From assembly GCA_018449715.1 (NCBI GenBank), contig JAAVVA010000003.1, positions 372,001 through 436,000 on the forward strand: a stretch of DNA of 64,000 nt, written 5' to 3'. Origin of the DNA: Acidobacteriaceae bacterium dw_441 (GTDB taxonomy: Bacteria > Acidobacteriota > Terriglobia > Terriglobales > Acidobacteriaceae). A program made the position numbers and the translations under genes. This document shows, in pieces, positions 1,941 to 2,633 of this stretch (its first letter is position 1; each line of letters opens with the position of its first letter). The notes under the pieces were generated by a model that did no database searches, had not been told where the DNA came from, and saw only the letters and a program-made list of their open reading frames with translations.

Positions 1941-1979
1941 AAAAAGGCCCGCTCGCGGAGTGCGCGTTAGCGGGCCTTT
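1941..1979 (-). terminator. Attenuator terminator of the his operon
   Basis: On the minus strand, arms AAAGGCCCGCT (1979-1969) and AGCGGGCCTTT (1953-1943) pair perfectly over 11 bp with a 15-base loop and run into TTTTT ending at 1941. It lies between the leader peptide stop (2004) and the hisI start (1905), so it acts before any structural gene. Its 5' arm and loop (1973-1962) can instead pair with leader bases 2038-2027 over 12 positions (10 Watson-Crick, 2 G-U), giving a mutually exclusive antiterminator. Confidence 0.9.
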
Positions 1980-2003
1980 CAGAATCCTGTGGTCTGCGCT
2001 TCT

Positions 2004-2090
2004 TTACTTCGCAACACCGGACACAGCCGCCAACACGCTCTGCGCATGATGATGGTGATGATGCCCGTGATGGAGGTGTAGCGAACGCAT
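2004..2090 (-). CDS. hisL: His operon leader peptide, nine histidines
   Basis: A 28-codon frame begins at ATG 2090 and ends at TAA 2006-2004. It encodes MRSLHLHHGHHHHHHAQS followed by ten residues. Nine of the first fifteen residues are His, including six in a row at positions 10-15. Peptides of this kind stall ribosomes when charged His-tRNA is scarce. The promoter -10 box ends ten bases before the ATG, so the transcript probably starts within a few bases of it and has no room for a Shine-Dalgarno site. Leaderless translation is therefore likely. Segment 2083-2076, covering codons 3-5, can pair with 2036-2028. A ribosome held on the His run would mask it and free 2038-2027 to form the antiterminator. 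Confidence 0.88.
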   Translation of the reverse strand: MRSLHLHHGHHHHHHAQSVLAAVSGVAK

Positions 2091-2099
2091 CGCATCTTC

Positions 2100-2128
2100 A
2101 GATTAGCGGCGGGGAAGGGGAAAGTCAA
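2100..2128 (-). promoter_or_regulatory. Sigma-70-type promoter of the his operon
   Basis: The minus strand reads TTGACT (2128-2123), a 17-base spacer, then TAATCT (2105-2100). Both boxes are near consensus and the spacing is ideal. The predicted start point is about 2093, two to three bases before the leader ATG at 2090. Confidence 0.85.
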
Positions 2129-2327: not shown

Positions 2328-2633
2328 ATGCGTATCTTTCGGAACCTCGTTCTTGCGGCAACTCTCTTTTCGACTCTTCCTCTCTCGATGGCGGCGCAGC
2401 TTCCCACGAAGGCTGCCACCGCAGCGGCTGCGGCGACGAGCAAGCTCGATATCAACACCGCCACCCCGGACCAGCTGAAGGCGATCCCCGGCATCGGCGA
2501 CGCGTACTCCAAGCGCATCATCGACGGACGCCCCTACACGGCGAAGAACCAGCTCGTCTCGCGTGGCATCCTTCCGCAGGGCGTCTACGACAAGGTCAAG
2601 GACCAGATCGTCGCCAGCAAGGTAAAGAAGTAG
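2328..2633 (+). CDS. Secreted ComEA-like helix-hairpin-helix protein
   Basis: The 101-residue product has an N-terminal signal sequence (about 1-22, ending near MAAQ), an alanine-rich linker (26-38) and one helix-hairpin-helix unit around LDINTATPDQLKAIPGIGDA (40-59). This matches the DNA-binding part of ComEA, which holds incoming DNA in the periplasm during transformation. Only the HhH part is present, without the N-terminal anchor domain of true ComEA. A role in DNA uptake is therefore possible but not shown. A Shine-Dalgarno AAGGAG precedes the ATG. Confidence 0.75.
   Translation: MRIFRNLVLAATLFSTLPLSMAAQLPTKAATAAAAATSKLDINTATPDQLKAIPGIGDAYSKRIIDGRPYTAKNQLVSRGILPQGVYDKVKDQIVASKVKK

Follow-up and report, generated by a model that had tools for sequence, protein, structure and literature searches.

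The region upstream of hisI in the window (the whole stretch of 64,000 nucleotides analysed here) raises the question of whether the histidine genes that follow it are controlled by ribosome-mediated transcription attenuation and, if so, how a ribosome would be loaded onto a leader frame which begins almost directly behind a promoter. The original prediction of a his attenuator is supported by comparative data, namely 93 upstream regions of relatives, the pair counts obtained from them and an order-wide covariance model. The element is very probably a transcription attenuator of the his genes that works through the ribosome, its leader peptide being translated from a leaderless or nearly leaderless RNA.

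The leader region and the his operon

The element lies on the minus strand. Direct reading identified a -35-like element, TTGACT (2123-2128), followed after a 17-base spacer by a -10-like element, TAATCT (2100-2105), with nine bases between the end of TAATCT and the A of the leader ATG. This was first described as a consensus promoter; the hexamers and their spacing are present, but "consensus" is too strong, as TAATCT agrees with TATAAT at three of six positions and the -10 hexamer of the window is weak. The leader peptide frame MRSLHLHHGHHHHHHAQSVLAAVSGVAK (2004-2090) runs from the ATG at 2090 to a TAA at 2006-2004 and has 28 codons, nine of them for His, of which six (codons 10-15, 2046-2063) stand in a row. 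Both direct reading and translation agree with the prediction on these points.

The last codon of the His run and the first two bases of the Ala codon after it make up conserved segment 1, CATGC (2044-2048). Segment 2, GCGTGTTGGCGG (2027-2038), would serve both as the 3' arm of a hairpin with segment 1 and as the 5' arm of the antiterminator, and segment 3, in the antiterminator register given by pair counts on 93 sequences, is CCGCTAACGCGC (1962-1973). As predicted, segments 2 and 3 can pair over 12 positions, two of these being G-U. Search and folding placed the 5' arm of the terminator, AAAGGCCCGCT (1969-1979), so that it overlaps segment 3, and its 3' arm, segment 4, is AGCGGGCCTTT (1943-1953) with a T run at 1945-1941. 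The terminator predicted ahead of hisI is accordingly present, having an 11-bp stem, a 15-base loop and a T run reaching 1941; the stretch 1985-1941 folds with -26.3 kcal/mol (z -5.3). A mechanical scan at its own thresholds called neither promoter nor terminator in the window, the latter because its loop limit of 8 shuts out a 15-base loop.

A Shine-Dalgarno-like GGGAG (1913-1917) precedes hisI (phosphoribosyl-AMP cyclohydrolase, 1564-1905; PRK00051, 131.8 bits, cut-off 126), which is followed on the same strand by hisG (ATP phosphoribosyltransferase, long form with C-terminal domain, 683-1564; TIGR00070, TIGR03455) and the start of hisD (1-603). In its own genome (L182) the operon continues past the window edge as hisD-hisC-hisB-hisH-(small ORF)-hisF-hisA. 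The small ORF between hisH and hisF (L182:6554-6841, minus strand) has 95 residues and a sub-threshold match resembling a biotin/lipoyl-attachment domain (Pfam PF00364, E 0.0016). An open frame of 511 codons on the plus strand (254-1789), antisense to hisG and hisI, is probably not a gene. A divergent small-protein gene (2328-2633, plus strand) with a weak, sub-cut-off ComEA match adjoins the his promoter.

Distribution among relatives and position of the promoter

HisI was present in 60 of 60 genomes of the genus, and 30 of those loci were taken together with 80 further named loci, the best 80 of 417 from the genome collection (Edaphobacter, Granulicella, Terriglobus, Terracidiphilus, Silvibacterium, and unclassified Acidobacteriaceae or Acidobacteria). 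After removal of 17 exact duplicates, these 110 loci gave 93 distinct 450-base regions upstream of hisI; in two (L020, L051) the leader start was shifted by hand to an upstream in-frame ATG. The original prediction had proposed that such regions be searched in relatives, and the search found the His frame in all of them together with compensatory changes in terminator and antiterminator (see below). A His-rich frame (at least five His within 12 codons) occurs in 93 of the 93 Acidobacteriaceae regions, with five to ten His codons per leader and a longest run of two to six, and a terminator with a T run lies between the frame and hisI in every region. A short leader frame rich in His codons ahead of an intrinsic terminator, as an attenuator should have, is thus found by sequence throughout the set, and finding the same arrangement in all 93 relatives appears to be more than chance, though the sequences share ancestry, so that counts are not independent and kinship inflates both double changes and shuffle results.

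At the level of the order, HisI was found in 170 of 200 genomes. Among the best 30 HisI matches of those 170, all 30 loci read have a His leader and 28 a terminator, the strict search having missed it in the other two (L115, L139). The alignment of the 93 leaders was also turned into a covariance model, which matched 166 of the 200 genomes, 161 of them at E ~1e-6 or lower; the model includes relatives of many of the scanned genomes, and high scores within the genus are expected by construction. The other five (G060, G064, G072, G073, G075) reached only E 2e-4 to 2e-3, a range also attained by secondary matches elsewhere in genomes. Direct reading confirmed a His leader in G072, G073 and G075 (L129, L113 and L140, respectively), and the best match in G060 (L276) lacks a His-rich frame and is doubtful. 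Second copies of the element were looked for in 21 genomes searched again, 20 of which had more than one match, and were rejected: additional matches score no more than 33.8 bits, and of nine secondary loci read (L277-L285) eight have no His-rich frame, the ninth (L285) being the opposite strand over that genome's primary element.

Thirty-four order genomes gave no model match; of the 20 that are listed, 19 appear in the list of genomes lacking HisI as well. HisI was missing from 30 of the 200 genomes; among the 20 listed, several (e.g., G083, G088, G107) are given as 99-100% complete. The joint absence of HisI and attenuator hints that histidine synthesis, or the contig bearing it, has been lost in some lineages of the order. 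One genome (G177) has the leader and no HisI match, which is attributed to an assembly gap because its contig ends shortly after the leader.

In a second family of the order the leaders (L111, L113-L115, L119, L125, L129, L140) differ from the main type. The His codons of L111, L114, L115, L129 and L140 are scattered and do not form one long run, the terminator sequences of this family differ, and L125, L129 and L140 lack TTGAC, yet keep a -10-like hexamer near the ATG.

Beyond the order, 40 regions from 40 genomes of the phylum were picked from the listed part of 256 genomes with HisI. A His leader stands ahead of the his genes in nine of these regions from other acidobacterial families; none was found at the threshold used in the other 31, several of which miss the operon start. 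Where the operon starts with hisI (nine regions) five have the leader, and one of the four that do not (L143) covers only 270 bases before hisI. By eye, in eight of the nine leaders from outside the order some 8 to 10 bases separate the end of a -10-like hexamer from an in-frame ATG, with the qualifications that the hexamer is weak in L163 and that in L171 the ATG is the upstream in-frame one. TTGACA was seen, also by eye, in four of them (L149, L163, L171, L172).

The position of the promoter relative to the leader varies within narrow limits. TTGAC starts 31-43 bases before the leader ATG in all 93 sequences, at 37 to 39 bases in 72 of these, and is a full TTGACA in 69; the chance expectation is 0.008 per such interval (five occurrences in 14186 other upstream positions). 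The motif also occupies this position in 26 of the 30 loci read across the order, and in all 16 tested of the 18 loci found with the model, several of these being shared with other sets. The base after the best -10 hexamer falls at -13 to -4 from the ATG, most commonly at -8 or -9 (57/93), and in the best register 82 of 93 sequences have A at position 2 together with T at position 6. For the window sequence the scoring script preferred GCTAAT, two bases upstream of TAATCT, and close relatives carry TACTCT or TACCCT in place of TAATCT.

Because TTGAC sits 31-43 bases before the ATG, there is no room for a Shine-Dalgarno site, as had been predicted. Shine-Dalgarno-like 4-mers precede the leader ATG in nine of 93 sequences (7.8 expected by shuffling); for hisI, 66 of 93 sequences have one within 20 bases upstream of the approximate start (38.8 expected). 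As judged from sequence, the leader frame accordingly has the feature expected of a leaderless mRNA, namely, the lack of such a site. In the his promoters of Corynebacterium glutamicum described in part of PMC3896937, the distance from -10 element to start is 7 ± 1 bases. If the same customary spacing of about seven bases holds here, the first transcribed base would lie no more than a few bases from the ATG, and from the promoter position in all 93 sequences the leader mRNA is predicted to be leaderless or to have a 5' UTR of a few bases. Leaderless initiation is plausible for Acidobacteria, since on average 13.3% of genes were predicted to be leaderless in the three genomes covered by the relevant portion of PMC3160421. 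No dRNA-seq work on Acidobacteria was found in the literature search.

The window has an out-of-frame ATG at 2095-2093 (minus strand), five bases upstream of the leader ATG, and an extra ATG lies 5 to 7 bases upstream in ten of the 93 sequences, out of frame in nine (at -5 or -7). With transcription starting at or before 2095, a ribosome initiating in the leaderless manner would be placed in a frame that lacks the His run. The upstream out-of-frame ATGs fit the leaderless model only if the start site lies downstream of them; a longer 5' UTR would likewise expose them to ribosomes.

An attenuator with an ordinarily translated leader, transcribed from upstream of TTGAC or from a second promoter and provided with a normal ribosome-binding site, could be considered in view of the weak -10 hexamer of the window. 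One of the nine leaders from other families (L176) has, by eye, a Shine-Dalgarno-like GAGG together with a wider interval downstream of its -10-like element. However, this reading is very unlikely given the narrow range of distances between TTGAC and the ATG in 93/93 and 26/30 loci and the occurrence of Shine-Dalgarno-like words before the leader ATG at no more than the shuffled level.

Pairing of the leader RNA and constraint on its codons

The structures examined in the alignment were themselves derived from the sequences, so the percentages of paired cells given here lean towards them, and double changes and shuffles are the better evidence. The terminator (segments 3 and 4), which had been predicted in this form, is paired in 95.5% of cells and has 56 cells changed on both sides; its covariation is 0.192 compared with 0.126 shuffled, and none of 500 shuffles reached the observed value. 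For the antiterminator (segments 2 and 3) 89.8% of cells are paired, six of the 12 pairs show double changes amounting to 48 cells, and the covariation is 0.197 against 0.152 shuffled (0/500 as high). The predicted pairing of segments 2 and 3 is therefore not only present in the window; it shows compensatory changes in relatives. Three outer pairs fail in 29-30 of 93 sequences. Slid registers are 29 to 47% paired, and the +1 register has 34 double-change cells compared with 48. The complementarity of segments 2 and 3 within single sequences ranks among the best 5 of 100 shuffles in 52 of 93 sequences and 18 of 28 order-level ones, that of the window itself not being among them, and is not exceptional for GC-rich DNA.

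Segment 1 had originally been placed at 2083-2076, pairing with 2036-2028. Such a pairing is present in the window but is not conserved, being 54.8% paired with 500 of 500 shuffles as high, and the conserved segment 1 at 2048-2044 takes its place. Pairing of 2048-2044 with 2038-2034 (GCGUG) is retained in 98.5% of cells; one pair is C-G in 58 sequences and G-C in 28, and another is U-G, C-G or U-A. Covariation of this hairpin 1:2 is 0.335 compared with 0.166 shuffled (0/500), but double changes (28 cells) occur in one pair only and are equalled by every shuffle, and on two measures counting pairs and types the hairpin is no higher than shuffles. A further pairing, of UUCGCUACACC with GGUGUUGCGAA, taken from the minimum-energy fold of the free leader in the window, was discarded as not conserved (51.1% paired, equal to shuffles).

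An antiterminator that excludes the terminator, as attenuation requires, appears from these alignments to be kept by compensatory change. What the sequence comparison shows is which parts make up the element, how they are ordered and covary, and that the spacing between promoter and ATG varies little.

The layout resembles that of the hisL leader of E. coli and Salmonella (Rfam RF00514), where the his operon is likewise preceded by a run of His codons and by an antiterminator and a terminator that exclude each other. Such likeness in function and layout would suit direct membership of the proteobacterial His_leader family, be it inherited from Proteobacteria or acquired from them, and one locus (L092) has a full-length, sub-threshold match to it (29.9 bits compared with a gathering score of 49, E 0.65). 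Nevertheless, RF00514 gave no match at E up to 1 in the first 10,000 bases of the window, nor in nine of the ten loci examined in this way, and the peptide and promoter spacing are unlike those of the enteric leader as described in print. The E. coli hisL peptide is given in part of PMC3896937 as 18 residues with seven His in a row; here the peptide has 28 residues, the 3' part of its coding sequence doubles as segment 2, the promoter comes so close to the ATG that a Shine-Dalgarno site does not fit between them, the operon starts with hisI, and there is no significant Rfam match. With its score below the gathering threshold, the element would not be assigned to RF00514, and descent of this kind is very unlikely.

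One group comprises the 47 leaders whose peptide carries an [S/T]V[L/S]AA motif. Within segment 2 of this group AGC GTG TTG GCG does not vary at its third bases (AGC 47/47, GTG 47/47, GCG 47/47); the Ala codon just after segment 2 varies (GCT 35, GCC 6, GCA 3, GCG 3). Another group of 32 leaders has CCG (20/20 Pro) and GCG (32/32) equally fixed at the same place, and 14 of the 93 leaders belong to neither group. These invariant wobble bases fit selection on nucleotides within segment 2, which would help to explain the conserved look of the C-terminal part of the peptide. Third-base conservation does, by sequence, reach beyond segment 2, e.g., in TCC three codons on: among the 47 leaders GTG (38/41) and TCC (45/46) past segment 2 are also nearly fixed. 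These near-fixed codons, at 2022-2010 (minus strand) in the window, have no known pairing partner.

A Pfam search of the leader peptide returned no family at E up to 10. Poly-His binds metal ions, and since conservation extends to the His run and some of the C-terminus, the frame might be thought to encode a functional small protein such as a metal-binding peptide, with the hairpin merely a terminator separating it from hisI; this is highly improbable, as third bases are fixed inside segment 2 and vary in the Ala codon right after it, the C-terminus differs between the groups of leaders (SVLAAVSG or SMPADCHG) while the RNA pairs are kept by compensatory change, and the element goes with hisI across genomes of the order.

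Switching, mechanism and related systems

In the constrained minimum-energy folds the ribosome was taken to cover 18 bases upstream and 13 downstream of the A-site codon. With RNA made through segment 3, the antiterminator is present in 89 of 93 folds with the ribosome at the first His codon, in 93 of 93 at the middle one and in 67 of 93 at the last (absent in 26). A ribosome on segment 2 leaves it in 0 of 93 folds; with the ribosome at the stop codon it is seen in 66 of 93, and in RNA free of ribosomes in 51 of 93. An earlier value of 0/93 at the stop codon was discarded, as it came from masking all RNA behind the ribosome, which is too strict. Up to the making of segment 4, the modelled stalled state behaves as attenuation requires. 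In full-length RNA at equilibrium the terminator is favoured in 80 to 93 of 93 sequences in every ribosome state, and it still wins in 80 of 93 with the ribosome at the middle His codon. Since the terminator wins at equilibrium even with a stalled ribosome, the switching decision would have to be kinetic.

In the model the histidine-replete state likewise depends on timing and is not settled by equilibrium folding. In 82 of 93 sequences the stop codon lies 18 or 21 positions past the end of segment 2, so that a ribosome which has reached that codon does not simply cover the segment; at this distance, termination would have to be set during passage of the ribosome over segment 2, or else through renewed formation of hairpin 1:2 in its wake. 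In the fold of the window RNA with the ribosome at the stop codon, this hairpin does re-form behind the ribosome.

From these results we infer the start site, leaderless initiation, stalling and kinetics as follows. RNA polymerase would start within a few bases of the leader ATG, and a ribosome would initiate on the 5'-terminal AUG without a Shine-Dalgarno site. During transcription of the His run, segment 1 and the GCGUG at the start of segment 2 may form a local hairpin. When charged tRNA-His is scarce, the ribosome would stall in the His run and keep segment 1 unpaired; segment 2 would then be free for segment 3, no terminator would form, and hisI-G-D-C-B-H-F-A would be transcribed. When histidine is plentiful, the ribosome would be crossing segments 1 and 2 as segment 3 emerges, or hairpin 1:2 would re-form behind it, and segment 3 would pair with segment 4, stopping transcription ahead of hisI.

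The separate elements of such a system are already known, his attenuators from Proteobacteria and Firmicutes and leaderless leader peptides from Sinorhizobium trpL and mycobacteria. A setting outside the Proteobacteria, which the original prediction regarded as unusual, is not in itself unprecedented, since his attenuators are described in part of PMC9413887 for the Firmicutes (Bacillus cereus group, Peptostreptococcaceae and Erysipelotrichales). As here, these combine a His leader peptide, a terminator and an antiterminator; their leaders have three to five His codons in a row, and leaderless initiation is not mentioned for them in the accessible part of that paper. In Sinorhizobium meliloti the 5' end of the attenuator RNA (rnTrpL/peTrpL) lies at the ATG of the leader frame, by experiment, according to sections of PMC7298713. 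An RNA of this type, starting at the leader ATG, is what is predicted for the present element; the S. meliloti system differs in that it concerns Trp, an alphaproteobacterium and a 14-residue peptide, with the start determined experimentally there and predicted here. Leaderless polycysteine frames of mycobacteria (Canestrari 2020, as cited in part of PMC9031893), for which earlier leaderless leader candidates appear in a portion of PMC4633059, resemble what is predicted here, in that a short frame translated without a leader, and containing the amino acid to be sensed several times in a row, attenuates the operon behind it. They sense cysteine, and candidate leaders of the cys operon are, in excerpts of PMC1262725, without obvious terminators.

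No his attenuator, leaderless His leader or other leaderless leader peptide in Acidobacteria or Acidobacteriota was found among the matches listed in the literature searches, to which a comparative attenuation study (Lopatovskaya 2010) and the supplementary tables of PMC4833913 and PMC2965389 are possibly relevant. Leaders of the same design for Trp, Leu and Ile/Val were sought in the genus in the stretches ahead of trpE, leuA and ilvB (13, 15 and 15 loci), as distinct from genes further upstream in those operons. None was convincing, the two weak Trp frames seen (L185 and L191) being without the promoter spacing.

It is conceivable, though rather doubtful, that the leaderless start is the ancestral and selected mode of ribosome loading in the his attenuator of Acidobacteriota, so that the element would sense both tRNA-His charging and the capacity for 5'-AUG (70S) initiation, and that the terminated leaderless RNA of about 150 bases may act in trans like rnTrpL/peTrpL. 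For classical attenuation to work, ribosome loading must follow closely upon the passage of RNA polymerase. A leader starting at its AUG would make it directly testable how leaderless initiation achieves such prompt loading, and whether pausing at hairpin 1:2 is still needed. The covariance model, in turn, may be used for annotating histidine regulation across the order.
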